Source: Pseudooceanicola batsensis HTCC2597
Lineage (GTDB): Bacteria; Pseudomonadota; Alphaproteobacteria; Rhodobacterales; Rhodobacteraceae
Length of the DNA: 64,000 bases
Assembly: GCF_000152725.1 (NCBI RefSeq)
Contig: NZ_CH724131.1
Location: 2,969,236 to 3,033,235 of the forward strand
Direction of reading: 5' to 3'
In this document: positions 5,122 to 64,000 of the stretch, one piece after another
Layout: the number at the start of each line of letters is the position of its first letter
Position numbering within the stretch: the first letter of the stretch is position 1
Translations under genes and position numbers: made by a program
Notes under the pieces: model-generated
What the model was told of the DNA's origin: nothing
Databases searched by the model: none
What the model saw: the letters and a program-made list of their open reading frames with translations, nothing else

Positions 5122-6282
5122 ATGACCATCATCGACGCCCCCGACGGCCTCTGGCTCGGCCGCTGCTGGCGCCCGGACGTGCAGGGCCCCGCTGTGGTGA
5201 CCCTGCGCGACGGGCAGCTCATCGACATCTCCGCGCCCCGGGCACCGACGGTCAGCCACGTGCTCGACCTGGACGATCCGGCCGCACATGTCCGCACCGC
5301 GCCCGGCACGGCGCTCGGCCCGCTCGACGAGATCGCGGCGGTCGCGCCCGCCGCCGACCGCCTGCACCTTCTGGCGCCCTGCGACCTGCAGGCGGTGAAG
5401 GCCTGCGGCGTCACCTTCGCCCGCTCCATGGTCGAGCGGGTGATCGAGGAGAAGGCCGCCGGCGACCCCGCCCGGGCCGAGGCCATCCGCGCCCGCGTCG
5501 GGCAGGCCATCGGCGACAGCCTGCGCAACCTTCGCGCCGGTTCGCCCGAGGCGGCCGAGGTCAAGCGCGCGCTCCAGGCCGAGGGGCTCTGGTCGCAGTA
5601 TCTCGAGGTGGGGATCGGCCCCGATGCGGAGGTCTTCACCAAATGCCCGCCGATGGCCTCGGTCGGGCCCGGCGCCGAGGTCGGCCTCCACCCCGTCTCG
5701 CGCTGGAACAACCCCGAACCCGAGATCGTGCTGGCCGTCTCCTCCTCGGGGCGCATCCTCGGCGCCACGCTCGGCAACGACGTGAACCTGCGCGACGTCG
5801 AGGGGCGGTCCGCCCTTCTGCTCGGCAAGGCCAAGGACAACAACGCCTCCTGCGCCATCGGGCCGATGATCAGGCTTTTCGACGGGGGCTGGACGCTGGA
5901 CGATCTGCGCCGCGCCGAGCTGACCCTGACAGTCGAGGGCGCGGACGGCTATGGCCTCACCGGTCATTCCACCATGTCCGAGATCTCGCGCGATCCCGAG
6001 GATCTCGTGGCCCAGACCATCGGGCGGCATCACCAGTACCCGGACGGGATCGTGCTGTTCCTGGGCACGCTCTTCGCCCCGACCGAGGACCGCGACGTGC
6101 CCGGAGAAGGGTTCACGCACAAGACCGGCGACGTCGTGACCATCGCGGCGCCTGGTCTAGGGCGCCTGACGAACACCGTGCGACTGTCGACCGAAGCGCC
6201 GGAATGGACCTTCGGCACCCGCGCGCTGATGGAGAACCTGGCCCGGCGCGGGTTGTGTCCCGGCGCCGCCCGCAGCGCCTGA
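5122..6282 (+). CDS. fumarylacetoacetate hydrolase (FAH) family protein
   Basis: The 386-residue protein has a C-terminal FAH domain. Metal-binding acids can be seen in NPEPEIVLAV and in GNDVNLRDVE. The length and the extra N-terminal domain resemble the 2-keto-3-deoxy-sugar-acid dehydratases of oxidative pentose pathways (XylX/KdxD type, about 390 residues) rather than short FAH hydrolases. The next gene encodes an ALDH like 2-oxoglutarate semialdehyde dehydrogenase, the step that follows such a dehydratase, which supports that reading. I chose the ATG at 5122, ten bases after the previous stop; an upstream in-frame ATG at 5038 lies within the hydratase gene. The exact substrate is inference. 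Confidence 0.88.
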   Translation: MTIIDAPDGLWLGRCWRPDVQGPAVVTLRDGQLIDISAPRAPTVSHVLDLDDPAAHVRTAPGTALGPLDEIAAVAPAADRLHLLAPCDLQAVKACGVTFARSMVERVIEEKAAGDPARAEAIRARVGQAIGDSLRNLRAGSPEAAEVKRALQAEGLWSQYLEVGIGPDAEVFTKCPPMASVGPGAEVGLHPVSRWNNPEPEIVLAVSSSGRILGATLGNDVNLRDVEGRSALLLGKAKDNNASCAIGPMIRLFDGGWTLDDLRRAELTLTVEGADGYGLTGHSTMSEISRDPEDLVAQTIGRHHQYPDGIVLFLGTLFAPTEDRDVPGEGFTHKTGDVVTIAAPGLGRLTNTVRLSTEAPEWTFGTRALMENLARRGLCPGAARSA

Positions 6283-6350
6283 CGATTTCTATCCCACCCC
6301 TGAACCGGCACCTTCCGTGCCGGCCCGACCTACATGAAAGGATCAGACAG

Positions 6351-7880
6351 ATGGACGGCACTTCCGCCGATTTCGCCCCCCATGGCAAGCACCTGATCGC
6401 CGGTGACTGGATCGGCGGAGAAAGGACCTTCACCTCCGATCCCGCTCATGGTCAGGCGCATGCCTACGCCGTCGGAACCCCGGACCTCGTGGATCGCGCC
6501 TGCCGGTCCGCCGAAGAGGCCTTTGCGACCTACGGCTGGACCGGCCGCGAGGCGCGGGCCGTCTTCCTCGAGACGATCGCCGACGAGATCGAGGCGCGCG
6601 GGCCGCAGATCACGGCCATCGGAACCTCGGAGACCGGCCTGCCGGAGGCCCGGCTGGAGGGAGAACGGGGACGCACGACCGGCCAGCTCCGGCTATTTGC
6701 AGAGCACATCCGCCAGGGCGATTATCTCGACCGCCGGCACGATGCGGCGCTGCCCGACCGTCAGCCGTTGCCGCGGCCGGAACTGCGGATGATGCAGCGG
6801 CCCATCGGCCCGGTGGCGGTCTTCGGCGCCTCGAACTTCCCGCTGGCCTTTTCCACCGCCGGAGGCGACACCGCCGCGGCGCTCGCGGCGGGCTGCCCCG
6901 TCGTGGTCAAGGGGCACTCTGCCCATCCCGGCACCGGCGAGATCGTGGCCGAGGCGATCCATGCCGCGATCGGCAAATGCAAAATGCCCGCCGGTGTCTT
7001 TTCGCTGATCCAGGGCGGAAAACGCGATGTGGGTCAGGCACTTGTCCAGCATCCGCTGATCCGCGCCGTCGGCTTCACCGGCTCGCTCGGCGGGGGGCGC
7101 GCGCTGTTCGACCTCTGCGCGCAACGCCCCGAACCGATCCCCTTCTTCGGAGAGCTCGGGTCCGTCAACCCGATGTTCATCCTTCCCGGGGCATGTTCGG
7201 CGCGCGGGGCCGAGATCGGCACCGGCTGGGCCGCGTCGCTCACAATGGGCGCGGGCCAGTTCTGCACCAATCCGGGGATCGCCGTGGTCGGAAAGGGGGC
7301 TGACGGCGATGCCTTTGTCGAGGCTGCCTCGGCGGCGCTGCGGGAGACGGCGCCCCAGACCATGCTGACCGATGGCATCGCGACAGCCTATCGCGACGGC
7401 AAGTCCCGGTTCGAGGGGCGGAACGCGGTCGAACCCGTGCTGACCACCGATCAGGAGGGGCGAAGCGCCGCGCCGAACCTCTTCCAGACCGATGCGGAAA
7501 CCTACCTGCAGGATCACGCCCTGGGCGAAGAGGTCTTCGGCCCCCTCGGCCTCGTGGTCCGGGTCTCGGGGGAGGAAGAGATGGCCAGCCTCGCCCGCGG
7601 ATTCGAGGGGCAGCTGACCGCGACCCTGCACATGGACGAGGGCGACACGAAGCTTGCCCGCGCCCTTCTGCCGATCCTCGAGCGCAAGGCGGGCCGGCTT
7701 CTGGTCAACGGCTTTCCCACCGGGGTCGAAGTTGCGGACAGCATGGTTCACGGCGGGCCCTATCCCGCCTCGACCAACTTCGGCGCCACCTCGGTCGGCA
7801 CGCTGTCGATCCGCCGTTTCCTGCGCCCGGTCTGCTATCAGGACGTGCCTGCAACCATCCTTCCCGAGGATCTCGTCTGA
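6351..7880 (+). CDS. aldehyde dehydrogenase (NADP+), 2-oxoglutarate semialdehyde dehydrogenase-like
   Basis: The 509-residue product is an ALDH of the NADP-dependent KGSADH-like branch. The active-site Cys is in GAGQFCTNPG, the general-base Glu in FFGELGSVNP, and the cofactor region includes FGASNFPLAFS and GFTGSLGGG. It begins MDGTSADF at 6351 behind AAAGGA; the much longer open frame upstream overlaps the FAH gene and is a shadow. It is the last gene of the operon, 68 bases after the FAH gene. It probably oxidises the semialdehyde to 2-oxoglutarate, feeding the TCA cycle; other short-chain aldehydes are possible. Confidence 0.92.
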   Translation: MDGTSADFAPHGKHLIAGDWIGGERTFTSDPAHGQAHAYAVGTPDLVDRACRSAEEAFATYGWTGREARAVFLETIADEIEARGPQITAIGTSETGLPEARLEGERGRTTGQLRLFAEHIRQGDYLDRRHDAALPDRQPLPRPELRMMQRPIGPVAVFGASNFPLAFSTAGGDTAAALAAGCPVVVKGHSAHPGTGEIVAEAIHAAIGKCKMPAGVFSLIQGGKRDVGQALVQHPLIRAVGFTGSLGGGRALFDLCAQRPEPIPFFGELGSVNPMFILPGACSARGAEIGTGWAASLTMGAGQFCTNPGIAVVGKGADGDAFVEAASAALRETAPQTMLTDGIATAYRDGKSRFEGRNAVEPVLTTDQEGRSAAPNLFQTDAETYLQDHALGEEVFGPLGLVVRVSGEEEMASLARGFEGQLTATLHMDEGDTKLARALLPILERKAGRLLVNGFPTGVEVADSMVHGGPYPASTNFGATSVGTLSIRRFLRPVCYQDVPATILPEDLV

Positions 7881-9884: not shown

Positions 9885-10515
9885 ATGACCGGGCCGGACT
9901 ACACCCTCGAACAATCCATAGTTGACAGCTGTCAACTTTTGGTTGCAGGCGTGGACGAAGTCGGCCGGGGACCGCTCGCCGGGCCGGTGACGGCCGCCGC
10001 CGTGATCCTCGATGCGACCTGCATCCCGGTCGGCCTGAACGATTCCAAGAAATTGACCGAACCCCGGCGCCTCGCCCTGCTCGAGGAGCTGCGCACCTGC
10101 GCGATGATCTCGGTGGCCCATGCCTCGGTCGAGGAGATCGACGATCTCAACATCCTCCGCGCCAGCCATCTCGCCATGGAGCGCGCGGTCGCCGGATTGC
10201 CCGTGCGGCCCGCGCATCTGCTGATCGACGGCAACATGATCCCGCGCGGCCTCGACATTCCCGCTACAGCGGTCATCGGCGGCGACGCCCGCTGCCTGTC
10301 CATCGCCGCCGCCTCGATCGCGGCGAAAATCGCGCGCGACACCATCATGCGGGATTTGGCGCAACAGTTCGCGGGCTACGGGTGGGATACGAACGTCGGG
10401 TATCCCTCAAAAAGCCATATTTCAGCGCTTCAAAGTATCGGTGTGACCCCACACCATAGGAAATCCTTCAAGCCGGTCCACAATATATTGTGTAAAGCTG
10501 GAAATCTAACCCCTT

Positions 10516-51967: not shown

Positions 51968-52044
51968 GGCCCCGTGGCTCAACTGGATAGAGCAGCCCCC
52001 TCCTAAGGGGCAGGTTGCAGGTTCGAATCCTGCCGGGGTCGCCA
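51968..52044 (+). tRNA. tRNA-Arg (anticodon CCU)
   Basis: A complete 77-base tRNA with encoded CCA. The acceptor stem GGCCCCG pairs with CGGGGTC (one G-T wobble), the anticodon stem GCCCC/GGGGC encloses CTCCTAA with anticodon CCT, and the T loop is GGTTCGAATCC. Base composition drops immediately after it, so its 3' end is a likely integration site of the island to the right. Confidence 0.96.
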
Positions 52045-52120
52045 AAACCACCTGAAAAATATGGCTTATTTACAGGGCTTTGTGCGGAAGCGTGCAATAA
52101 GTCCCGTGAGCTTTCGTGGC

Positions 52121-52182
52121 GAAATCGGCTGAAACGGCCGATTTCTCGTACAAAACCTGTACAAAATTCGCACGTTTGTGCG
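52121..52182. promoter_or_regulatory. cluster of three inverted repeats at the island start
   Basis: Three perfect inverted repeats lie within 62 bases. They are GAAATCGGC/GCCGATTTC (52121-52145), GTACA/TGTAC (52148-52162) and CGCAC/GTGCG (52169-52182). A direct repeat GTACAAAA occurs at 52148 and 52159. They sit between the tRNA and the replication-type gene. Such clusters are typical of transfer origins, replication origins or operators; I cannot tell which. Confidence 0.55.
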
Positions 52183-52199
52183 CATTTTGGGGGCCAAAC

Positions 52200-53057
52200 A
52201 TGAGCCGCCATAGCTTTGATCCCGAAATCGCCGGACAGGTTGGCCTGAACGCGGCGGTGATTTTCCAGAACATCACCTTCTGGATCGAGAAGAACCAAGC
52301 CAATCGCCGGAACCTTCGAGACGGGCGGTATTGGACCTACAATTCGATCTCGGCCTTCGGTGAGCTGTTCCCTTATCTGAGCGAAAAGCAGATCCGAACA
52401 GCCCTCGAAAAGCTGGTTAGCGCAGAGCTGATCATCAAGGGTAATTTCAGCGATGATCGTTATGATCGGACCTGCTGGTATGCCCTGGGCAACTCCATTT
52501 GCCCAAATGGGCAAATCGATCCGACCAAACGGGAAAATGATGCATTTGCCCGTGAGGGCAAGCCATCTGCCCCAGAGGGCAAATCCTATAAGTACAGATA
52601 TAAACCATATCAAAAACCAGATCCTTCGCACGCAAAGGCGGCGGTGGAGGATGAAGTTTCCGAAAGGATTTTGTCCGCCTATCCCGAGGACCGCGTTCGC
52701 GGCAAAGCCGTTTGCCTCTCGCAAATCCGCCAAGCGCTGACCGACGGTGTGGATGCCAAAGACCTCGAGGACGCCGTGCAGGCCTATGCGACTGAGAGCG
52801 AGGGTTTTACCCGATCAAAGGTTTGCTTTTCGGACAACTGGTTCACCTCTGGCCGTTGGTTGAAGTATCTGCAGAACGTTCAGGAGGCGCGAGAAGCCGG
52901 CAAAGCCAAAGAGGTCGAACTGCTGAAAGGCTTGGCCGACTGGGTCACGGACCGCCATCCGCTTTGCCGCCACATCACGCCCGGCCAAGTGACCGCGTTG
53001 CTGGCCGCAAACCTGGTCAGCACTGCTGAAATCGAAGCGGCGGGGCTCAGGCCATGA
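52200..53057 (+). CDS. winged-helix replication-type protein of a mobile element
   Basis: The 285-residue protein has an N-terminal winged-helix module (NAAVIFQNITFWIEKN, YLSEKQIRTALEKLVSAELI) like those of phage and plasmid replication proteins. A low-complexity linker with repeated Gly-Lys/PEGK-like turns and a C-terminal DnaD-like or helicase-loader-like part (SDNWFTSGRWLKYLQN) follow. It is directly followed by mobC (ATGA overlap). The ATG at 52200 is preferred over an in-frame upstream one at 52116, which lies within the inverted-repeat cluster. It may initiate replication of an excised or plasmid-like form. Confidence 0.65.
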   Translation: MSRHSFDPEIAGQVGLNAAVIFQNITFWIEKNQANRRNLRDGRYWTYNSISAFGELFPYLSEKQIRTALEKLVSAELIIKGNFSDDRYDRTCWYALGNSICPNGQIDPTKRENDAFAREGKPSAPEGKSYKYRYKPYQKPDPSHAKAAVEDEVSERILSAYPEDRVRGKAVCLSQIRQALTDGVDAKDLEDAVQAYATESEGFTRSKVCFSDNWFTSGRWLKYLQNVQEAREAGKAKEVELLKGLADWVTDRHPLCRHITPGQVTALLAANLVSTAEIEAAGLRP

Positions 53058-53524
53058 GTGCGACCGCCCCCCACAAAGAGCAGAGAGCAAGGTTACCCAC
53101 CGATTACATCGGCGGGACTTGTGAGGGGCGGCAAGCCTCCCCTTCAAACCCCAACCAGACGCGCGCAAGCGGCGTCAAAGAGGGCCTTTCCGAGAGTGTG
53201 ATCTTTCGATGCACCCCGTCGGAAAAGGCAGCGCTTGTGGCCAAGGCGCACGCCGCCGGCCTGCCCAATGCCACGTTGATGCGCGAGGCCTTGGGGTTGA
53301 CCGAGGCACGTCGGCGCAAGCCTGTCCCACGTGTCGACCCAAAGCTGACCTTTGCGATTGCCCGTGTCGGTGGCAACCTCAATCAGCTCTCCCGCTGGAT
53401 CAACGGCGCGGTCAAGTCCGGCCGGGCGAGCCAGATCGATGCGCTCAAGGTTGCTACGCAGTTGGTGATCATCGAGCGGCAATTGGCGCAGATCGCGGCG
53501 GCACACTCAGACGGTGACGCATGA
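53054..53524 (+). CDS. MobC-like relaxosome accessory protein
   Basis: The 156-residue protein has a ribbon-helix-helix-like start (IFRCTPSEKAALVAKAHAAGL) and the MobC motif RVGGNLNQLSRWIN, near residues 101-114. MobC proteins bind the transfer origin and help the relaxase open it. The gene overlaps the stop of the replication-type gene (ATGA) and the start of mobA (ATGA), so all three are co-translated. Confidence 0.85.
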   Translation: MSATAPHKEQRARLPTDYIGGTCEGRQASPSNPNQTRASGVKEGLSESVIFRCTPSEKAALVAKAHAAGLPNATLMREALGLTEARRRKPVPRVDPKLTFAIARVGGNLNQLSRWINGAVKSGRASQIDALKVATQLVIIERQLAQIAAAHSDGDA

Positions 53525-55077
53525 TCATATCCTTCTTCTCCACCGGCACAGGTGGCGGCGCAGCCCCCGTTGACTACCTGACCGCGCGCGAAGTTCTGGC
53601 CTATGACGAGCACCGCAATCTGATCCGCGACGACAACGGCCAGCCGCAAATCAAGATCCGTGAGTCGCTGCCCGAGGTACTGCACGGCAACCCCGACCAA
53701 ACCCGCGACCTGATCGACGCGAGCCCCAACAAGTGGAGCTACACGGCAGGTGTGATCAGCTTTGCCGATAGCGATGATCCCAGTCCCGACGCCCAGCAAG
53801 AGGCCATTGAGCTATTTGAGGCTCTGGCCTTTGCCGGGCTGGACAGGGATCAATACGATTGCCTTTGGGTGCGTCACTCGCATGAAGGTAATGTCGAGCT
53901 GCACTTCTGCACGCCGCGCCTTGAGCTTGGCACCGGTAAGGCTCTGAACATCGCGCCACCAGGGCATGAGAACGCCTTTGCCAGCCTGCGCGATTTGATG
54001 AACAAGACGCACGGTTGGGCAGACCCTTTGGACCCAGAACGCGCCCGCGAAGTGAGGGCGACGATTGAGGCGCCGACGCGCGCGCAAGGTCGCGAAGAGC
54101 TGCACGATTGGATCCTCGATCAGATCAGCGTCGGCATCATCACCGACCGCGCCAGTATGATCGATGCGCTCACGGACGCAGGCTTCGAGATCCCCCGCGC
54201 CAGCAAGAACTACATCACTGCCAAAGACCCCGACACCGGCGAGCGCTGGCGATTGAAAGGAGAGATTTTCCATGACGACTGGCAAGCCGAACCGCCTCGC
54301 CGAGAAATTGAACGCGGACCTGGAGACAGTACGCAGCGACCACGCCGCCATGATGGCATCTCAGCTGGAGAGCTTCAGGAGCGATTTCAGCAGCATTGCG
54401 ACCAGCGCGCTGCATACAATCGAAACCGATATCAGGTTCTTTCTGAGCGACAGCAAGAGCGAGTTGGAGAGGCGGAGCGAGACGATCAGGCGCTGGTTGA
54501 CGATCTCGCCGTGGGTGATCGTGGGGATGGTCTCAGCCTGGATCGCGACGGTGCTGATGGCGAGTTGGTTTTGGACGGGTTTGATCATGCGCTCGGAGAT
54601 GTCGATGCTTGGCCTGACCCGGATCGAACAGGCTGGGCAGACATGGGTGACGCTGGACCCCGAACGGACCGAATTGAAGACCTGCACATTGGCGCAGACG
54701 CCGATCATCTGCATCAAGATCAAGGAGCCTTAGATGACGCAACCCCTGACAGCATTGGAGCGCGAATTGCTCGCATCCGTCGAGCGGTTGGTGACGGCCT
54801 GCGAGAGCTCAGCCAAGGAATTGCACGCCTTGGAGAAACGCTCGACCAGCAGGATCGAAAGCAAGGTGAATGGCTTGGCGCATTGCGTGGCGCTATTGAT
54901 GAAATCACATCTCACGTCCGTCACCACATTGGCCGACTTGCTGCGCGAGGAGCAGAATTACGAGACGCTGCAGGCGGGGTTAGAGACCAGCTGGAAACTA
55001 GCGAAAGACGCCGAGAAGCGGCTGAAAGAGAGTTAGATGCGAGAGTTAGTCACCGCAGCGCGGGGCATTCGCTTTGA
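53521..55077 (+). CDS. MobA-like relaxase (mobilization nuclease)
   Basis: The 518-residue protein has an N-terminal relaxase domain of the MobA/VirD2 type. The candidate catalytic Tyr19 (PVDYLTAREV) and the metal or HEN-like motif WVRHSHEGNVELHF (His119, His121, Glu122, Asn124, His128) are visible. The C-terminal half, beyond about residue 250, is Asp/Arg/Gln-rich and disordered-looking. This half overlaps two other genes in a different frame. It should nick the transfer origin and lead the strand to a recipient, using another element's type IV system, since none is seen here. Confidence 0.88.
   Translation: MIISFFSTGTGGGAAPVDYLTAREVLAYDEHRNLIRDDNGQPQIKIRESLPEVLHGNPDQTRDLIDASPNKWSYTAGVISFADSDDPSPDAQQEAIELFEALAFAGLDRDQYDCLWVRHSHEGNVELHFCTPRLELGTGKALNIAPPGHENAFASLRDLMNKTHGWADPLDPERAREVRATIEAPTRAQGREELHDWILDQISVGIITDRASMIDALTDAGFEIPRASKNYITAKDPDTGERWRLKGEIFHDDWQAEPPRREIERGPGDSTQRPRRHDGISAGELQERFQQHCDQRAAYNRNRYQVLSERQQERVGEAERDDQALVDDLAVGDRGDGLSLDRDGADGELVLDGFDHALGDVDAWPDPDRTGWADMGDAGPRTDRIEDLHIGADADHLHQDQGALDDATPDSIGARIARIRRAVGDGLRELSQGIARLGETLDQQDRKQGEWLGALRGAIDEITSHVRHHIGRLAARGAELRDAAGGVRDQLETSERRREAAERELDARVSHRSAGHSL
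54272..54733 (+). CDS. MobB/MbeB-like membrane protein nested inside mobA
   Basis: This 153-residue gene lies wholly within mobA in the +1 frame. AGGAG at 54258-54262 precedes the ATG by nine bases. The product has a coiled helical N-terminal half (NRLAEKLNADLETVRSDHAAMM) and one clear membrane helix near residues 80-105 (WVIVGMVSAWIATVLMASWF). In RSF1010 and ColE1 the mobB or mbeB genes are nested in the relaxase gene in the same way, and RSF1010 MobB is a membrane-associated transfer factor. The identity is inferred from position, topology and size, not from a detailed match. Confidence 0.75.
   Translation: MTTGKPNRLAEKLNADLETVRSDHAAMMASQLESFRSDFSSIATSALHTIETDIRFFLSDSKSELERRSETIRRWLTISPWVIVGMVSAWIATVLMASWFWTGLIMRSEMSMLGLTRIEQAGQTWVTLDPERTELKTCTLAQTPIICIKIKEP
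54734..55036 (+). CDS. MbeD-like coiled-coil protein nested inside mobA
   Basis: The 100-residue gene starts immediately after the nested mobB-like stop (TAGATG), with AGGAG at 54723-54727, and is also inside mobA in the +1 frame. The product is almost entirely helical and charged (LERELLASVERLVTACESSAKELHALEKR), like the small MbeD/MobD proteins of ColE1-type plasmids, which also overlap mbeA. The function in transfer is inferred from this parallel. Confidence 0.7.
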   Translation: MTQPLTALERELLASVERLVTACESSAKELHALEKRSTSRIESKVNGLAHCVALLMKSHLTSVTTLADLLREEQNYETLQAGLETSWKLAKDAEKRLKES

Positions 55078-55230
55078 AATAAGCACATGCAAGAGCTAAA
55101 AAGAGATAGCCCAACTTTTTGATGTTTGAACCCAGATTAACTAAATGCTGAGAAATGGCAGCGATTCAACTAGCCCTATACGTGTTTTAGCTCCGACGCC
55201 GCTGCCGATGCGCGACAGAACGGTGCGACG

Positions 55231-55992
55231 CTAGTAAACCATTTCCGATGCTTTTTTCGCATACCAAAAACGCATTTGTTCGCCGCCTCGCTTTAGTCCT
55301 ACGTAAATCTCCCGAACGCCTAAGGAATCATCGTAACTCCTACTTGATTTGTACTTAGAGAAACTAAGCTTGTAGATCAGGCCTTTCTTGTGGGATTCTA
55401 GAACCTCATCGAGCCAATCTCGCTTCGCCCAAAGGATGGAGCCCTCGTCCTGATATCTGCTTCCACGCCCATCGGGGTCCGGCCTCCACTCGCCCCAAAC
55501 TTCGCTCTTCAAGACTTGTTTCCCAGTATTGTCTTGCCAGTAGCGTTCATTTTCGTCGGCTCTCAATCCGAGAAGCTTATTTAGAGCCAGCCCCAGCTTT
55601 GGACGGGCTATCGCACCACGTGTGGCCCACTTGTCGCGTTCATCAATGCCAATGGGATACTTCTCGGGCTCCCAAATCAGAGGGTCAAACAGCCCCTTCG
55701 TCCTGTATCGATCAATTCGCCCGTCCGAGCCAAAACTCGGCAACCAAAGATCATGATCAGGCGTCTTCGCGAACGCCGAGCATTGCTTAACCGCTCCGCG
55801 TTCGGGCAACAGAGCGGAGACAAGGCCTACGTGTACGCCGTCGCGCGATTCCCAGCGTCCGCACAGGGGTAGGAAGCGATCCTCCGCATCCACAGGAAAT
55901 CCAACCTTTTGGAACAGTTTTTCCTTATCAAGAAGTGTTTCCTGACTTCCCTTACGCTCTCCCAGGTGACCTGCCCCCTGCCGGTCCCTCAT
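55231..55992 (-). pseudogene. C-terminal fragment of the IS-split giant STAND protein
   Basis: This 253-residue open frame begins at an ATG in the terminal repeat of the IS, directly after the transposase stop codon (TGAATG). From residue 10 on (LGERKGSQETLLDKEK) it is the severed C-terminus of the gene at 57217-62913. Removing the IS and one CAGG joins ...AREHL to LGERKGS in a single frame. The fragment carries about 243 native residues, rich in aromatic and charged residues (YWQDNTGKQVLKSEVWGEWRPD). It could still be translated by coupling to the transposase. The domain type is unknown. Confidence 0.8.
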
Positions 55993-56895
55993 TCATAACG
56001 AGAGTCTGCAGTTTGGATTTGGGTATTCCGGTTCTCCGTCTGGCGCAAGCGCGCCGGGCGCGGAGCCCTCAATTTGCTCAAGCGCCCGCCGCGCTTGCTG
56101 CGGCGTCTGGTTGCCGAGCGACGAGTGTGGCCTGACCGTGTTGTAATCGTAGCGCCACAAGGCCAGCTTGCGGCGTGCATCGTCCAGGCTGTCGAATATC
56201 TCCTCGTTCAAGAGCTCGTCGCGCAGGCTGCCGTTGAAGCTCTCGATGAAGGCGTTCTGCTGCGGCTTGCCCGGATCGATGTAGTGCCAGGGCACCCTGT
56301 TCTCGTCAGCCCATTTCAGGATGGCCCGACTGGTGAACTCCGTCCCGTTATCACTGACAATGCAGCCCGGCTGTCCGTAGACCCGGATCAGGGCGCTGAG
56401 TTCCCGGGCCACTCGTGCGCCCGACAGACTCGTGTCCGCGATGAGGCACAGGCATTCCCGCGTGCAGTCGTCGATTACGGCGAGGATGCGGAACTTCCGC
56501 GAGGCGCCGAAACTGTCGGACACGAAGTCCAGGGACCAGCGCGCGTTGGGACACGCGGCAACGGGCATCGGTGCTCTGGTGCCGCGCGTCCGTTTCCGGC
56601 CGCGGCGCCGTTTTACCGACAACCCTTCCTCACGGTAAATGCGATACAGCTTCTTGTGGTTCATGATCATGCCCTTGCGTTCCAGCAATATGCCGATCCG
56701 GCGATAGCCGAACCGACGCCGCTTGCCGGCGATCTCCTGCATCTCCTTGCGGATCTCAGCACTGTCCGGCGGGCGGTCTCGCCGGACAGTCTTGGGATCG
56801 ACACCGACCAGCCTGCAGGCCCGGCGCTGCGAGATGTCGTGATCCCGCATCACTCGGAGCGCCGCGTCTCGCCGCTTGGTCAACGTCGTCAGCTC
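55993..56895 (-). CDS. IS407-group transposase OrfB (DDE integrase domain)
   Basis: This frame supplies the catalytic part of the OrfAB transposase, about 300 residues after the frameshift. HTH_21-like [16 protein letters not shown] is followed by the DDE core: [20 protein letters not shown] and [17 protein letters not shown]. The C-terminal [13 protein letters not shown] is typical. It has no good start of its own near the junction and should be made by -1 frameshifting from orfA on G-GGA-AAG at 56895-56901, giving a 386-residue fusion. The stop at 55993 is directly followed by an ATG reading into the split gene fragment. Confidence 0.93.
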
Positions 56896-57152
56896 TTTCC
56901 CAGCAGGTCTTTCAAGACAACGTTGTCCAGCATCGTATCCGCCAGCAGGCGCTTGAGCTTGGCGTTCTCGTCCTCGAGGGCTTTCAGCCTGGCCGCCTCG
57001 GACACTTCCATGCCGCCATACTTGGACTTCAGCTTGTAGAAGGTCGCCGTGCTCAGCCCATGCCTGCGGCACACCTCGGCTGTCGGCATACCGGCTTCCT
57101 GCTCCTTGATCATCCCGATTATCTGCGCCTCGGTGAAACGGCTCTTTCGCAT
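56889..57152 (-). CDS. IS407-group transposase OrfA (HTH_8/IS3-type)
   Basis: The 87-residue protein has the IS3-family helix-turn-helix ([21 protein letters not shown] and [23 protein letters not shown]), then the leucine-zipper-like [19 protein letters not shown]. It ends in KDLLGKS, the usual IS407 OrfA end. The slippery heptamer G-GGA-AAG overlaps its last sense codons, so a fraction of ribosomes continue into orfB. Confidence 0.94.
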
Positions 57153-57216
57153 TCGTCTGCTCCTTCAGAGTTGGCGCAGACTCTACATCATGGTGAGGGA
57201 TTTCGCGGGGGGCAGG

Positions 57217-60200
57217 TCACAGGAGATGCTCTCTCGCCTGCGCCGGAACACAGTCCTTGTGATCCGACAGCCATGAACCATCTTTGAAAGATACATCCCC
57301 ACTCTCGATAAAACTTTGCCAAGGGTCCAGGCCCTCCCAATCGTAGCTCCGCCTCACAACGGGCTTGGTCTTCACGAGCGTGGTTGCGGCGTGAAGGCGT
57401 GCATGGCGTTGAATGTGTTCTCGATAAGTTTCAAACCTTTCATCGCCTCGGTAACGAAAACGACCAGGAAAATCGGACATACTATTTGTACCTGGCCAGC
57501 GCTTTTTCACCTCTTCAGCGACTAGATCACTGGCTTCGTTATTGGATATCCAAAAGAGCTCCGCTAGGCTTGATATCTTGTACTCCTTGAAGTCATGCTC
57601 AAACCCAAAATCAAACCGCCGAACCTTGTTCTCCGGCCATCCGTCGCGTTCAACGATGCCATGCGGAGGCGTTAGAACTTCCTCCCACAATTGGGCGAGT
57701 TCAGGACTCATCGGTTCACCGCTCTCAATGTTCTTCAGGCATCGGGCGATATGAAGTTTGTTGAGAACGTGCGAATTGGGCTGCTTCGCTAACGCTGCAA
57801 TCCTTGTCTTCAGAGGGTTGAGTGCTTCGCTGTGGTGAAGGGCGGCGCGCGACAACCCCATCAATAGCCATTGCTGGGCGTTCAGGAAGGAAAAATGATG
57901 CTCCTCGGAAGCCAGCGACGGGTTTTTCTCCGTATCAAACCGATCGAGCAAACGCCCTACGTCTTGGATCAAGCCAACGTCAAGCATGCCCTTCAGGCTT
58001 CGAGCTGCATTCCACCTGACAAAGGCATCACTATCCCCGAGCAAATGCCAAATGATATCCGCAAAAACATCGCCTTCGTCGCTCTTACCTGCGAAATCAG
58101 CACGATATGCTCCTTCACCGATCTCATCACCAACTTTCGCGGAAGGCCCGGCTAGAAAGTCTTCGAATGCCGTCAAAGCGGTGGAGGGATCGGCGTGCCT
58201 CGATAGGCTCGTCGCCAGTTGGAGCCATTCATCCCCCTCGAGTTCAAGGCGCTCCTTAGCTATCGTCTCTAGGACTGTCTGGAGTACAAACTTTTGATCA
58301 CCGGACAGCTTGGACAAGCGATTGATTTGTCTGGGGATGCCCGAATATCGGAGCTCGAACAGCTCGGAGCCTTTGAACGCAAAGAGTTTTTTGATCAAGC
58401 CAGCGCCGCTGTTCTTTACATGCGCCGAGCTAGTCCCCCAGTCTTCAATGCATTCGATTATGAAATCGAGCGCGCGGTCAAATTCGAGCTCGGCAGCCTC
58501 GCAAAGCGCCTCAAGGAAATTGACCCGTTTGTCATACGGGCAAATCTTTCGTAGCTCTTCAAACAGACGATTGGTGTTTTCGAAAGGCAGTCCATCACTG
58601 GCCTTAGCGTCCTGAATTGCTGTGTCCAGCGACGATGCTGATGTTGGATCACAGTTGGCAACAATGGACATCAAGGCGTTGGTGAAATCCTGCTCATCGG
58701 TCGTCTTACTCGCTCGCTGGGCGCTGTACTCAGCGCTTGCGCCAGTGTAGTTGTTCTTAGAATTTTCGGTTTCGCGCCGGTGCCGCGCTGCTTCGCGTTG
58801 CTCTTGGAGGTGGCGTCGCACGCCATCTTCGTTGATCTCTTCATATTCATCCAAACAATCCAGCAAGCTCTCCCACAACCCTTCCCATCCGCCGAAACTG
58901 TGTTCTTGATCAAGCTTCCCGGACACAAGAGTGAAAATCGCCGCTCTGTCCTGCAGATCAGCGACGGAGAGCACATCGTGCAGACCTTTACCAACCTGCC
59001 ACTCGTGCCAACCATGATCCTCGGAGATAGTAAGAAGCACTGCCGCGCGGCGCGCATCGAGATTGCCTGCTTTGGCAAGACAACAGGCGAGCTGAGGCAT
59101 CCCGTATGAATATTCCACAACATCCTGATCGCTCCAGCGTATCAGTTTGTACGCAGCCGGAAAGCCGATTGAGGAAGCAGCGGCGCGTCCAAATAGATAC
59201 CATCCAAATTTCGACGGCTCATGTTGGAATATCGTTTGACATAGATTCATGAGCCTGTGTGAAAGTGCCGGTTTTACAAACCCTCCAGGCTGCTCTGCCG
59301 CGAAGTGTAAAACCGAGTAGATCAGGTCAAAATCGTTACCGCCCATCTGATCTAGTTGCACCAGTCCTTGAGCGTAGTAAGCTTTTGCCTCACCAATACT
59401 CATTGGGATTAGCGACGCAGCCAAGCTCCGATAGGAATCGCCGCGTTGCTCAATGTAGTCATATTTCACAATTTCGGTGGAAATCTTTGCTGCATATTCT
59501 CCTGCGACATCGGAAAGATTTGAGCGCTTAGCAATGAGTGCTAACACGCCAAGTTTATCACCCAGCGAAAACCGGTTAGCTTCAACGATTTCTATGAGTT
59601 CTTTCGCCTCACCCTTCTCGACGGTTTCGGAGTGACGAAGCAAAAGTTTGGCAAGACCAACTCCAACATGTCGCGCCACGTTGTCTCTTCCGCTCTCAGC
59701 TCGCCAATGAACATCGGGCCTCAAGGTGGATTTCCATATGGCTAGGAATGCCGCCAGCACATCATTTGAAAGTACTGTTTTGGATAGAATAGCTGCTTGA
59801 ATTGGCGTAACTAATTTGAGGACACAAGCCGTGCCCTTGACAATGTCATCTCGCTCGTGCGTTGAGAATTGTTTACGTTTCTCTGAGTTCTTCCGCTTTC
59901 TTCCCGCATTCTGACTTCTCGTTACGATGAGACTATCAAGGAATGTGCTGAGATCAGCTTCGCTGACAATAGATTTTGTCTTTCGGCTTGTTTTGACATC
60001 TTGCGGCAAAAGGTGTTGTAGCGATAGCTCTTCGCCCGCTGACCATGCTTTGATGCAGGCCGATTGAACAGGGATCCACACCCTGTTGATGCCATGCCGC
60101 TCTCCATAGTCGTAGCTCGATGGCCTGCGATGGAGGTATAGCCGCAGTAGACGCGTTGCCGACTGCTTGGAGTTTACGATGAGTGAGCCCATCGCGGCAC

Positions 60201-62913
60201 TAGTAATAGCACCCTGCAGTTCCATCTCGTAATCGGAGGAACGCTTTGGAACCTTCTTTTTGTATCGAAGTGAAAGCGAACTAGCTGCCCGCGAAATTGC
60301 CCTGAGCTGGCTTCTTGTCAGACCATGTTCGTTGGCGAGGAGACCGATTTGCAAGGTAAGAGACAGGCACCTTTTCGATGCTGCAAACTTCACTAGGTTC
60401 TGCAGGGCCTTACTGTCATTCGACGCTTCGTGTTGTGTGCAAAGGGCAATGAGCTCTTCTACGACCGAGAGGGCAAACTTGAAATGCCATAGCTGGATAT
60501 TCCGATTGAACGAAAAGAACTCGTCCTTCAACACGCTCAAAAACATTACTGCAGCGAGATCACCGGCCTCCGGTCCCGAGCGATCAAAACCTTTGCTCTC
60601 ATCATCTCTGTGAATATACCAATTAATCCAACCAATCGCCCTATTTTGATGAATGCGCGCTTCATCAAGTTCATTCGAAAAGCAATGAGCGACGATTAGC
60701 CTCGTGTCACGTGCCCCACGCCAACCGGATCGATCATTGAACAAGCGGCGAGAAGTATCCGAGCCTCCGAGAATTGTTGCCAGTGCAGGAGCCTGCCGTA
60801 TGAATTGATCGCCCTTCGCATTGGCTGAAGCCACTTGCGAGAGGTGCATCGATAGACTCAAAGCGCGGTCTAGGTCTTGTTCACGCGTCGCCAGCGAAAA
60901 TGCTGCATAGAGCCTATTAAGCTTCAATCGGCGACGCTCATACTCGGATTCGATTTCTGTCGGGAACTCATCCGAACTTGCGAGTTGAAAAGCTCTGTTG
61001 CTATCGCCGATGACTACGAGGAAATGTGGGAGCGCTTCAGCGGCGTAGACTGAGTCCTTCTGATGCACTTGGAGTCGCTGCGCAATGGATTGCTGCGCAG
61101 AAATCTCGCTGGCATATTGGTCTTTGATGTAGGTTTCAGTGGGTTCGTCACGAAAGATCGCCCCATGCCTGACCAGTTCAAGCATCGGCGCAAGATCGGA
61201 TGCAGCGCTGTTGACCTGTGAGGCCGACCAACCCAATGCCCTGGCTAATTCAGTCAGTGGAATCGGTGGCGGAAGGAGCGACAAGGCGGCAAAGAATTCA
61301 CGAACTTCAATCTCGCTCCAACCTGCTGTGTATAGGTCATCGAATATTTCCTGGCATTTCTCAGCGATAAGTTCTTCGACTGAAATCTTGGTTTTCGGAG
61401 CGTTGCCGGACACGTTCGAATCCCAGCTCTCAACTAAGTAATCGAGGACTCTTGCGTTACCTTGAGAACGCGCCATCACTGTTGAGAATTCGACATCCGT
61501 TATTTCATCGCGCCGTGTCGCAAGGAACTCCCGCGTTTCCTCTTCTGTAAACGGCTTTAGCTCAAGACGCGTTGACCGGCTCTTTCCGATCACACTATCC
61601 ATTCTGTGGGGGCGCGCAGTGAGCAACAGCTTCACACCGTCAATGGGGGCTGCACTTAGCGATGCGAGCAAAAGCCTTGGGAACGCATCTTCATTGCGCG
61701 CATTGGCTTCCAACTGCGCATTGTCTGCAGCGTCCAACACAATCAGTACACCCTGCAATGCGGACTGGTTCTGGACAGTTTCGCTCGCTTGTCTGAGACG
61801 CTTGCGAGCGACATCAATCAATCCATATTGATCGCTGTCAGAAGGAAGAAGCGGATCACAGAGCCCGCGTGTTGCTAGTTCGTTAATGATCTGTAGCAAA
61901 CCCACTTTCGGCATATGACGCGCCTGAGCCTCGGAGCGATATGCCCCACCACCGAAGCAATCGAAAATTACAACCTCAAACGACTCCCTCAGATGTGAAG
62001 CGAGGCTTTGGATGAAAACCGTCTTTCCGACGCCTCCATCAGCGTAGAGAAATAAGGGTATACTGCTCGCTTCGATCTCGTCTTTGACAACGTGAAGGGC
62101 AGAGCGCTCGACAACTTCACCAACATCAACGAAGCGGGTATCCGCAGGAAATAGCTGATCCTCGTCACACTCCAAGGCATCGAGGACATCTTCACGTGTG
62201 ATCGAGTTGTTTCCCTGCCCTTCGATTTGGGCCTTCTCTCGCACAAGCTCAACCAGAGCGTACAACCTTTTTGCGGCCTGTCCGGTGGATCCGGCAGACC
62301 AATCGCTAACCGTTCGTCGAAGGGATCGGTTCTGAGCAGGAAGATCACTTGTTGCAGCGCGAAACTCGATTAGCGGGAAGATTTCCCCTGCTTCGATCTT
62401 CTCCTCCTTACACCATGCCTCGAGATATCTAAGTTGTGACTTACCGCTCTGGGTCTTCGCTACGCCACCTGACTTCAAACATTCGATAGCATCCCATAGG
62501 TCGCTAGAGAATTTGGCATTTGTTACGAACCCGAATGATAGCTTGTTCGCGATGTCTGCGCTCGAAACACTTTTTCTGATCTCGCGAAGCGACGCAGAAA
62601 ACTTCTTGATCGTCTTTTTTAGATAGGAAGAGGTGACCGGCTTTTCAGCCTCTTTGTATTTGAACTGCAAAATTTGCTGGGAGCTGCAGGTCTCAAAAGT
62701 ATCGCCAGACCCATAGAAAAGAGTGAGATCGGCAATGTCCTCGGCCTCTTGCCCCCACTTCAGATTCTCATTTGGGGATAGGCCCTCAACAACGACTGCA
62801 AAAAGATCATCTTTGGGGAAAACAAGTTGAAGCGCACGTCGTGCAGCCCACCTTTCGTGGAAGGTATGCCCAGCCCTTGAGACTCTGACTTTTTCGACTT
62901 TTTTTCTTGTCAT
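57217..62913 (-). CDS. giant STAND NTPase with N-terminal nuclease domain (Avs-like), truncated by IS
   Basis: The remaining product is about 1898 residues; before the IS it was about 2141. Near residues 15-90 is a PD-(D/E)XK-like nuclease of Cap4/DUF4297 type: GHTFHERWAARRAL, then Glu in VVVEG, Asp in EDIADL and QFK. A P-loop NTPase follows with Walker A YADGGVGKT (about 291-298) and Walker B VLIVLDAAD (about 389-397), then LLLTARP. About 1400 residues of helical repeats make up the rest. This is the layout of Avs/AVAST antiphage sensors. The stop TGA is supplied by the IS end. I chose ATG 62913; a TTG at 62919 is possible. Assignment to a specific Avs class is not possible. Confidence 0.8.
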   Translation of the reverse strand: MTRKKVEKVRVSRAGHTFHERWAARRALQLVFPKDDLFAVVVEGLSPNENLKWGQEAEDIADLTLFYGSGDTFETCSSQQILQFKYKEAEKPVTSSYLKKTIKKFSASLREIRKSVSSADIANKLSFGFVTNAKFSSDLWDAIECLKSGGVAKTQSGKSQLRYLEAWCKEEKIEAGEIFPLIEFRAATSDLPAQNRSLRRTVSDWSAGSTGQAAKRLYALVELVREKAQIEGQGNNSITREDVLDALECDEDQLFPADTRFVDVGEVVERSALHVVKDEIEASSIPLFLYADGGVGKTVFIQSLASHLRESFEVVIFDCFGGGAYRSEAQARHMPKVGLLQIINELATRGLCDPLLPSDSDQYGLIDVARKRLRQASETVQNQSALQGVLIVLDAADNAQLEANARNEDAFPRLLLASLSAAPIDGVKLLLTARPHRMDSVIGKSRSTRLELKPFTEEETREFLATRRDEITDVEFSTVMARSQGNARVLDYLVESWDSNVSGNAPKTKISVEELIAEKCQEIFDDLYTAGWSEIEVREFFAALSLLPPPIPLTELARALGWSASQVNSAASDLAPMLELVRHGAIFRDEPTETYIKDQYASEISAQQSIAQRLQVHQKDSVYAAEALPHFLVVIGDSNRAFQLASSDEFPTEIESEYERRRLKLNRLYAAFSLATREQDLDRALSLSMHLSQVASANAKGDQFIRQAPALATILGGSDTSRRLFNDRSGWRGARDTRLIVAHCFSNELDEARIHQNRAIGWINWYIHRDDESKGFDRSGPEAGDLAAVMFLSVLKDEFFSFNRNIQLWHFKFALSVVEELIALCTQHEASNDSKALQNLVKFAASKRCLSLTLQIGLLANEHGLTRSQLRAISRAASSLSLRYKKKVPKRSSDYEMELQGAITSAAMGSLIVNSKQSATRLLRLYLHRRPSSYDYGERHGINRVWIPVQSACIKAWSAGEELSLQHLLPQDVKTSRKTKSIVSEADLSTFLDSLIVTRSQNAGRKRKNSEKRKQFSTHERDDIVKGTACVLKLVTPIQAAILSKTVLSNDVLAAFLAIWKSTLRPDVHWRAESGRDNVARHVGVGLAKLLLRHSETVEKGEAKELIEIVEANRFSLGDKLGVLALIAKRSNLSDVAGEYAAKISTEIVKYDYIEQRGDSYRSLAASLIPMSIGEAKAYYAQGLVQLDQMGGNDFDLIYSVLHFAAEQPGGFVKPALSHRLMNLCQTIFQHEPSKFGWYLFGRAAASSIGFPAAYKLIRWSDQDVVEYSYGMPQLACCLAKAGNLDARRAAVLLTISEDHGWHEWQVGKGLHDVLSVADLQDRAAIFTLVSGKLDQEHSFGGWEGLWESLLDCLDEYEEINEDGVRRHLQEQREAARHRRETENSKNNYTGASAEYSAQRASKTTDEQDFTNALMSIVANCDPTSASSLDTAIQDAKASDGLPFENTNRLFEELRKICPYDKRVNFLEALCEAAELEFDRALDFIIECIEDWGTSSAHVKNSGAGLIKKLFAFKGSELFELRYSGIPRQINRLSKLSGDQKFVLQTVLETIAKERLELEGDEWLQLATSLSRHADPSTALTAFEDFLAGPSAKVGDEIGEGAYRADFAGKSDEGDVFADIIWHLLGDSDAFVRWNAARSLKGMLDVGLIQDVGRLLDRFDTEKNPSLASEEHHFSFLNAQQWLLMGLSRAALHHSEALNPLKTRIAALAKQPNSHVLNKLHIARCLKNIESGEPMSPELAQLWEEVLTPPHGIVERDGWPENKVRRFDFGFEHDFKEYKISSLAELFWISNNEASDLVAEEVKKRWPGTNSMSDFPGRFRYRGDERFETYREHIQRHARLHAATTLVKTKPVVRRSYDWEGLDPWQSFIESGDVSFKDGSWLSDHKDCVPAQAREHLL

Positions 62914-63054
62914 TTTCAAAACTGCTCCGAGTGTTTAGCTATTTGTAAGGCCGAAAAAATATTGCGGTATAGAATTGGCGACTTTGAGCTTCCCATAATC
63001 TGGCAATTCGCAATGTGAGTGAACTTGTTAATCGTTACCGTCACCTGCTGATCG

Positions 63055-63837
63055 TCAATGAATACAACCTAAATAGTTTTCTCCAAAACGGTCCATTGCT
63101 ACGCGCGCAACTCGCTCATTGACGCTCTCATCAATGAATAGGCCCCAAGGGTAAACGTCGACATTGGCGAGCTCGAAATCGTCTTTTGGGTTGGGCTTGT
63201 TTTGGCTGAGAAATGCGTAGCGGATCCCGGCCCACATCTCGAAGCCGAGCTCGACCTCGAGACCATCATATATGCTGTCGCCAGGGGCGTTAACGATCAC
63301 CTTTTTGGTAATGTCACCGAGTGCTTCCAACAGCATAATGCTGCACGTATGGGCCATAATGTCCGCAAGTTGGATACCCATGACCGCCTTGGAATCCTGT
63401 TCAAAGTGGAAGATGCAGCCTGCGAGCTCCGGATCGCCTGCAACTAAAGCCTCGGCCGCACTTTTGTGTTTGAAGAGGCCTTCATCAAAGAAGACCTCAT
63501 GCTGCCGCCCCTCGAGCAAGGGATGCTTCAGTGCGCTACGCAAAAGCGTCAACGAAGCTGGGCCTAATTTCCTAGTGTCTTCTGCGCTATCTACGACGCA
63601 TAGGGCCATTTTGCAGTTGCGTGCGATAAAGTGTTTCAAGCTATCACGCAGCGCTTGAAGATCATTGTCATCTTTCATGGTCGCTGAAGACTTGAACTCG
63701 AACGTGCCTGGATCGAAGCCATACTCGCGAAAGAGCGCGCCCATTTCTTCTGTGGGATCCACATCGCAAATGGCGAATGCGGCAAGTGAAAAGCCGGATC
63801 TATGGTGCTTGCTGTCGTCTAAAAATAGATAGGCCAT
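63055..63837 (-). CDS. DUF3800-like protein upstream of the STAND gene
   Basis: The 260-residue protein starts AYLFLDDSKHHRSGFSLAAFAI and later has FFDEG and IQLADIMAHTCSIML. This is the pattern of the DUF3800 family, thought to have an RNase H-like fold with acidic active-site residues. Its role is unknown; DUF3800 genes are often found in mobile islands and near defence genes. It starts at an ATG sharing one base with the stop of the preceding gene (TAATG). It is followed 141 bases later by the STAND gene on the same strand, consistent with one operon. Confidence 0.75.
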   Translation of the reverse strand: MAYLFLDDSKHHRSGFSLAAFAICDVDPTEEMGALFREYGFDPGTFEFKSSATMKDDNDLQALRDSLKHFIARNCKMALCVVDSAEDTRKLGPASLTLLRSALKHPLLEGRQHEVFFDEGLFKHKSAAEALVAGDPELAGCIFHFEQDSKAVMGIQLADIMAHTCSIMLLEALGDITKKVIVNAPGDSIYDGLEVELGFEMWAGIRYAFLSQNKPNPKDDFELANVDVYPWGLFIDESVNERVARVAMDRFGENYLGCIH

Positions 63838-64000
63838 TACTGCTTAAAACAATTCTCTCTGTGCCAGGTTACAAACTCAGTCCTTGGCCGGTTGGCGAGG
63901 CGGTCCGGCACCAGGATCTTGCCGGACGAGTTAATCATCGACGTCACGGCTTCGATGTCGTTGCTCTGACGGGAAACCAGAATTGTCAGGTCGTCAGCCA
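63837..64000 (-). CDS. partial gene running off the right edge
   Basis: The minus strand has an open frame from the window edge to a TAA at 63837-63839, giving the last 53 residues (ending VTWHRENCFKQ). The stop overlaps the DUF3800-like start codon (TAATG), so it is probably the upstream gene of the same operon. The visible part (ADDLTILVSRQSNDIEAVTS) is not recognisable to me. Confidence 0.6.
   Translation of the reverse strand, partial: ADDLTILVSRQSNDIEAVTSMINSSGKILVPDRLANRPRTEFVTWHRENCFKQ

Follow-up and report, generated by a model that had tools for sequence, protein, structure and literature searches.

A 64,000-nucleotide stretch of the Pseudooceanicola batsensis HTCC2597 genome (contig NZ_CH724131.1, positions 2,969,236 to 3,033,235; here called the window, with positions counted from its first letter) contains a giant minus-strand gene that is split by an insertion sequence (IS). 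The most probable reading by far is that this gene encodes an Avs3-like antiphage sensor, that it was carried as cargo by a mobilizable element located at a tRNA-Arg gene, and that it was recently interrupted, and inactivated, by an IS of the IS3 family. The coordinates of all features are collected in Table 1.

The interrupted frame extends from 62913 to 55231 on the minus strand and is seen as two open reading frames (ORFs) in the same frame, 57217-62919 (with an ATG at 62913, giving 1898 residues) and 55231-55992. The IS and one copy of the flanking CAGG together measure 1257 bp, or 3 x 419, so the reading frame is preserved across the insertion, and the N-terminal piece ends at 1898 residues at an in-frame TGA supplied by the IS end (57217-57219). 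The rejoined protein comprises 1896 + 1 + 244 = 2141 residues, a length obtained by adding up the separately aligned pieces. The pattern is not due to chance: a single gene frame is interrupted by an IS. The initial annotation of the window had proposed the same reconstruction (an IS at 55967-57219, one duplicated CAGG, a single frame of about 2141 residues with about 243 of them cut off), and the inverted IS ends, the duplication and the 1257-bp unit bear it out, with 244 C-terminal residues removed by our count.

The inverted ends of the IS agree over 12 exact bp, or over 16 bp at 94% when each arm takes in one flanking base. Its transposase matches the IS3-family model NF033516 with 238.5 bits against a cut-off of 160. 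The genome holds four identical copies of this IS, the one in the window included, and one additional copy at 82%. Two of the three other identical copies lack matching 4-bp flanks, and the flank of the third (G000:C2:2616826-2618141) could not be judged, as a leftover of this IS end, 63 bp long, lies directly behind it.

A scan of genome contigs yielded 13 loci with an Avs3-like gene (L025 overlaps L015 and was not counted twice). At 10 of them the gene is a single uninterrupted frame of 2133-2144 residues, counted from where the match begins. In-frame stops occur in L017 and L021, and the part present in L022, a C-terminal one, is open. A further intact copy, L024, comes from a genome of the same family as the host. 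Such uninterrupted genes were found in Pseudohongiella, Seohaeicola, Gemmobacter, Ewingella, Citrobacter, Desulfosediminicola and others. They resemble the window gene in sharing 68-77% identity over the N-terminal piece, in a frame that continues through the junction and in having no detected avs3b gene (see below), and differ from it in lacking the IS and in having other neighbours. The identity of the ten aligned homologues to the window gene is 67.7-76.9% over the N-terminal and 55.3-71.7% over the C-terminal piece. The initial annotation had suggested that uninterrupted homologues be sought and their C-termini compared; all ten are collinear with the window gene through the IS junction, and none ends there. 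When full-length relatives from canonical Avs3a and from the clade of the window gene are aligned, 11 of 11 have 236-316 residues beyond the junction.

The affiliation with Avs3 is supported by several comparisons. The N-terminal piece matches the Pfam NACHT model of STAND/NACHT ATPases above its cut-off (31.2 against 26.7 bits), and both the Walker A GK[T/S] and Walker B DAxD motifs are retained in 12 of 12 aligned rows, as are the nuclease residues D62 and Q83-x-K85. The nuclease is assigned to the Cap4 type by alignment to Avs3. The nuclease-STAND-repeat layout described in the initial annotation is thus recovered, the STAND part by a domain model above its cut-off and the nuclease part through the alignment, with the Cap4 model below its cut-off. 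The PADLOC Avs3a model matches the N-terminal piece at E 8.4e-157 and the C-terminal piece at E 2.1e-13 (model positions 1884-2064 of 2090), while no other PADLOC model matches either piece at E up to 1. Among the Avs types the ten homologues also match Avs3a only; a search across these types, as initially proposed, gave a match to Avs3a and none to Avs1, Avs2, Avs4 or Avs5, for the window pieces or for the homologues. Among solved structures, both pieces match SeAvs3 (PDB 8dgc) and no other, the N-terminal piece at E 5.3e-99 (limit 0.01) and the C-terminal piece at E 0.0043 (limit 1). In a profile comparison with hhalign, the ten homologues and four canonical Avs3a proteins align across 1982 columns (9-2112 against 5-2062) with 24% identity and E 4e-125.

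Compared with SeAvs3, an AVAST type 3 Avs3a protein, the window protein arranges its nuclease, STAND ATPase, repeats and C-terminal segment alike and has a similar length (about 2141 against 2092 residues), and it shares its catalytic residues with four canonical Avs3a proteins. Its N-terminal piece is 20-23% identical to four avs3b-linked Avs3a proteins, a value not computed for SeAvs3 itself. Unlike SeAvs3, the window gene is interrupted, has no detected avs3b, and falls far under the equivalog cut-off of NCBIfam NF041816 (2800 bits), with 600.3 bits for the N-terminal piece; the homologue L016, the one of the ten for which bits were given, reaches 659.2, and the best E value is 1.3e-203. 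Judged by these alignments, the window protein is Avs3-related over nearly its full length. The initial annotation had also raised an unassigned Avs class and a size at or above the upper range of Avs proteins. The PADLOC, 8dgc and profile matches speak against the former, and the latter does not hold given the 2092 residues of SeAvs3 and 2211 of another relative.

By homology with Avs3, the C-terminal part of the intact relatives would bind a phage protein, tetramers would then assemble, and the nuclease domains would pair, become active and cut DNA. For SeAvs3, viral protein binding is described as leading to tetramers with active nuclease dimers (PMC11291478). The triggers of Avs1-4 taken together are given as the large terminase, the portal or some other phage protein (PMC12931631). 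In Avs5, deletions of C-terminal helices are reported to have abolished immunity (PMC12931631). Avs5 (PaAvs5) resembles the window protein as a STAND sensor, one whose C-terminal part is needed for immunity (PMC12931631), and differs in its Sir2 effector, its repeats and its trigger. The window copy would yield a protein of 1898 residues without the C-terminal segment, one that presumably no longer defends. Considering the segment present in all full-length relatives compared and the analogy with Avs5, loss of function by the insertion is likely, and the inactivated defence gene of the initial annotation is probable.

The remaining coding sequence is well preserved. Among positions invariant in the ten homologues, the window gene retains 792 of 823 in the N-terminal and 78 of 79 in the C-terminal piece; in leave-one-out comparisons the intact homologues retain 92.5-99.6% and 82.5-100%, respectively. 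No decay of the cut-off C-terminal piece is seen at these positions, and for this reason the insertion is probably recent. It is conceivable, at rather low probability, that the truncated protein of 1898 residues continues to act as a sensor, unchanged or altered, with the last 244 residues being dispensable or needed for specificity only. It retains the residues of the nuclease and the ATPase along with most of the repeat region, and the N-terminal piece is undecayed. However, the segment after the junction is not only present in all 11 full-length relatives compared but also alignable across clades, the Avs5 deletions point the other way, and the absence of decay may merely reflect a young insertion.

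Several points weigh against an inactivated Avs3-like sensor and should be set beside the evidence for it. We infer the loss of function from homology and analogy. The N-terminal piece keeps its catalytic residues and could remain active or become misregulated. The Pfam Cap4 match is weak and below the cut-off (14.5 against 26.2 bits). The trigger of the clade to which the gene belongs may differ from that of Avs3a, because identity is low and no avs3b was found.

The relationship to canonical Avs3a was further assessed through the companion gene avs3b, which adjoins avs3a in two annotated canonical loci. An avs3b model built from four loci (L061, L068-L070) recovers these and five more (L034-L037, L071), all beside canonical-type avs3a, and a tenth locus (L038) was found by tblastn alone. 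The model has no match in the loci of the window clade, nor beside the distant proteins L065-L067, in flanks of unequal length, those of L017, L021, L022, L024 and L065-L067 being short. Genome-wide, avs3b was found in none of 13 clade genome handles (of which G227 and G416 seem to represent one genome) compared with 3 of 3 controls. In a tree of 20 proteins, the 16 rows without avs3b nearby and the 4 with it lie on opposite sides of one branch (100/100); the tree carries warnings on long branches and letter make-up, and its root serves for drawing only. On this evidence the window gene belongs to a sister clade of canonical Avs3a and is not canonical Avs3a itself.

The low identity to the avs3b-linked proteins, the scores of 600 and 659 bits and the missing avs3b could also be taken to indicate an Avs class separate from Avs3. 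We regard this as improbable: no other Avs model is matched in PADLOC or NCBIfam, the remaining matches are weak (DnaA at E of at least 0.075 for the window, PDC-M17B at 0.0085 for one of the ten homologues), collinearity with Avs3a extends over almost the whole protein, and L065-L067, which have no avs3b in the short flanks read, stand at 25-27%. For the sister clade itself we speculate, with considerable doubt, that it could represent a mobile, single-protein, avs3b-independent Avs3 subtype spreading among Alphaproteobacteria, Gammaproteobacteria and Thermodesulfobacteriota, with a trigger that spares the large terminase of gene transfer agents. If so, these proteins may sense a different phage feature, or may have learned to ignore the domesticated terminase. 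A limited literature search returned no mention of Avs3b, Avs3a or AVAST type 3/III, and the clade may still be in print.

The least probable alternative, a two-piece protein in which the C-terminal segment is translated from the ATG at 55992 by coupling to the transposase stop and complements the N-terminal piece, is very unlikely: the TGA of orfB directly abuts this ATG, which is in frame with the undecayed C-terminal piece (9 IS residues and 244 of the gene), but such a frame fit is expected by chance in one case of three and the lack of decay is uninformative if the insertion is young. A promoter scan of 55000-57400 gave 0 sites compared with 0.6 expected and is uninformative on this point.

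Within the genus, the Avs3-like gene occurs in the host's own genome only, among 22 genomes. In the family, 11 of 394 genomes have a match, and 3 of these, the host included, fall in the clade at an identity of at least 72%. In the class, 4 of 385 genomes match at E 1e-30, with the host alone at clade level. The gene has no match among 50,697 phage records and no confirmed relative in viral contigs, and the Citrobacter copy has no match in E. coli genomes at megablast sensitivity.

Interruption is not confined to the window. The clade genes examined number 18. Intact genes make up 12 of them (the ten uninterrupted homologues, L024 and L059), and three are split by IS elements (the window gene, L057 and L058), with four elements at four positions; target duplications were checked for the window IS. 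L057 and L058 are plasmid copies from Rhizobium leguminosarum Vaf10 and Vaf-108, members of the same clade at 48-50% identity, and are interrupted by transposases annotated as IS481 and IS3 (Vaf10) and IS630 (Vaf-108) at positions unlike that in the window. One gene has two frame breaks (L017), one lies in fragments of a single metagenome assembly and has frame breaks (L021 and L022), and one is represented by its C-terminal third only within the 8.5 kb read (L060 4995-7181, on a Pseudorhodobacter turbinis plasmid, 42% identity). The frame breaks in draft genomes may be sequencing errors. Since a 6.4-kb gene is a large target, breakage across the clade is no proof of selection for its loss.

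Avs3 responds to the large terminase of phages. The host genome has a terminase (Terminase_6N) about 11 kb from a GTA_TIM gene (G000:C2:961515-973691). Five genomes with an intact Avs3-like gene (G369, G414, G415, G417 and G418) have a terminase and GTA_TIM 10-11 kb apart, and in a sixth, G416, the two genes are on different contigs; GTA_TIM was not found in 5 of the 13 clade handles. These clusters presumably represent working gene transfer agents. The Avs3-like gene in intact form is thus compatible with a gene transfer agent cluster in the same genome. Autoimmunity against the gene transfer agent was considered as the cause of the loss and rejected, given these six other distinct genomes with an intact copy and both genes.

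The gene lies in a region delimited by a 43-bp exact repeat, found at 51998-52040 in tRNA-Arg and at 66941-66983 in coordinates extended beyond the window (47 bp at 98%). The G+C content in 1-kb steps is 0.49-0.62 between the repeats compared with 0.64-0.73 outside. Genes for replication, MobC and relaxase functions occupy one end, and HNH, XRE and integrase genes the other, with the integrase matching Phage_integrase above its cut-off. From these genes and repeats we predict an integrative mobilizable element of about 15 kb, from 51998 to extended position 66987 (L039 3234-18223).

Table 1. Features of the interrupted gene, its insertion sequence and the putative carrier element
Feature	Position	Strand	Remarks
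tRNA-Arg (CCT), integration site	51968-52044	+	att repeat 51998-52040 exact, to 52044 at 98%
Replication-initiation-like protein, mobile element	52116-53057	+	phrog_11233, E 1.4e-37; no Pfam match
MobC/NikA-like mobilization protein	53054-53524	+	MobC above cut-off
MbeA-like relaxase	53521-55077	+	below curated cut-offs
C-terminal piece, Avs3-like gene	55231-55965	-	244 residues, not decayed
Possible separate ORF for C-terminal piece	55231-55992	-	9 IS-derived residues + C-terminal piece = 253 residues
Target-site duplication CAGG, left copy	55963-55966
IS3-family insertion sequence	55967-57219	-	1253 bp; orfA 56889-57152, orfB 55993-57072
Target-site duplication CAGG, right copy	57220-57223
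N-terminal piece, Avs3-like gene	57220-62913	-	1898 residues up to IS-derived stop; putative Cap4-type nuclease, STAND NTPase, repeat region
Walker B DAADNA (residues 394-399)	61717-61734	-
Walker A GGVGKT (residues 293-298)	62020-62037	-
Nuclease motif region D62 ... Q83-x-K85 (residues 62-85)	62659-62730	-
DUF3800 protein	63055-63837	-	cargo adjoining the Avs3-like gene; not found beside homologues of that gene
HNH endonuclease gene	63837-64000	-	runs on to 64736, beyond the window
XRE regulator, integrase, right att repeat	66941-66987 (repeat)		beyond the HNH gene, on L039

The left arm of the element is found at the same tRNA in three other genomes at 90-92%. One of these (L098) also has the right arm (89%), and its cargo slot is occupied by a hybrid two-component regulator. 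Another (L096), which has a right repeat, contains IS21 genes and a gene for a C5 DNA methylase. For L097, the third, the 20 kb read showed no right repeat, and a transposase and other genes are present instead of Avs3. As related elements carry other cargo, the Avs3-like gene and its DUF3800 neighbour look exchangeable. In L098, a stub of about 55 bp from the 5' end of the DUF3800 gene (reverse complement, about 10226-10280, corresponding to window 63783-63837) marks the cargo boundary, DUF3800 itself being absent. The HNH gene (L039 15073-15972) overlaps the DUF3800 gene by one base, and its product matches PADLOC HNH models (E 1.4e-19) and a type II restriction model (5.3e-8).

Conserved partner genes were sought in two ways and rejected in both. 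Six ORFs of the element (DUF3800, relaxase, MobC and three others) have no tblastn match at 1e-4 in the 13 loci, and when the 633 ORFs lying within 8 kb of the gene were clustered across 16 sequences (the window included; L021, L024 and L060 left out), no family appeared in more than five. The family present in five, for which L057 and L058 carry the annotation ABC transporter ATPase, is found at varying distances from the gene; two further families occur in three loci. A downstream neighbour of 544-559 residues is common to L020 and L059 (TIGR04141 family in L059). Elsewhere in the window, ARAGORN calls a permuted transfer-messenger RNA with an odd tag peptide at 6022-6497 on the minus strand, which is probably false.

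The sister clade without avs3b, the carrier element and the IS breaks in two other clade members go beyond the initial annotation. As for the broken copy, the inactivation of a large and probably costly gene by an IS is nothing unusual, and the analysis places an odd giant gene in a known immune family. With a sister clade in which no avs3b was detected, the need for avs3b becomes testable, and the intact copies that reside in genomes beside gene transfer agent terminases offer a test, set up by nature, of the way in which Avs3-like sensors distinguish phages from domesticated ones.

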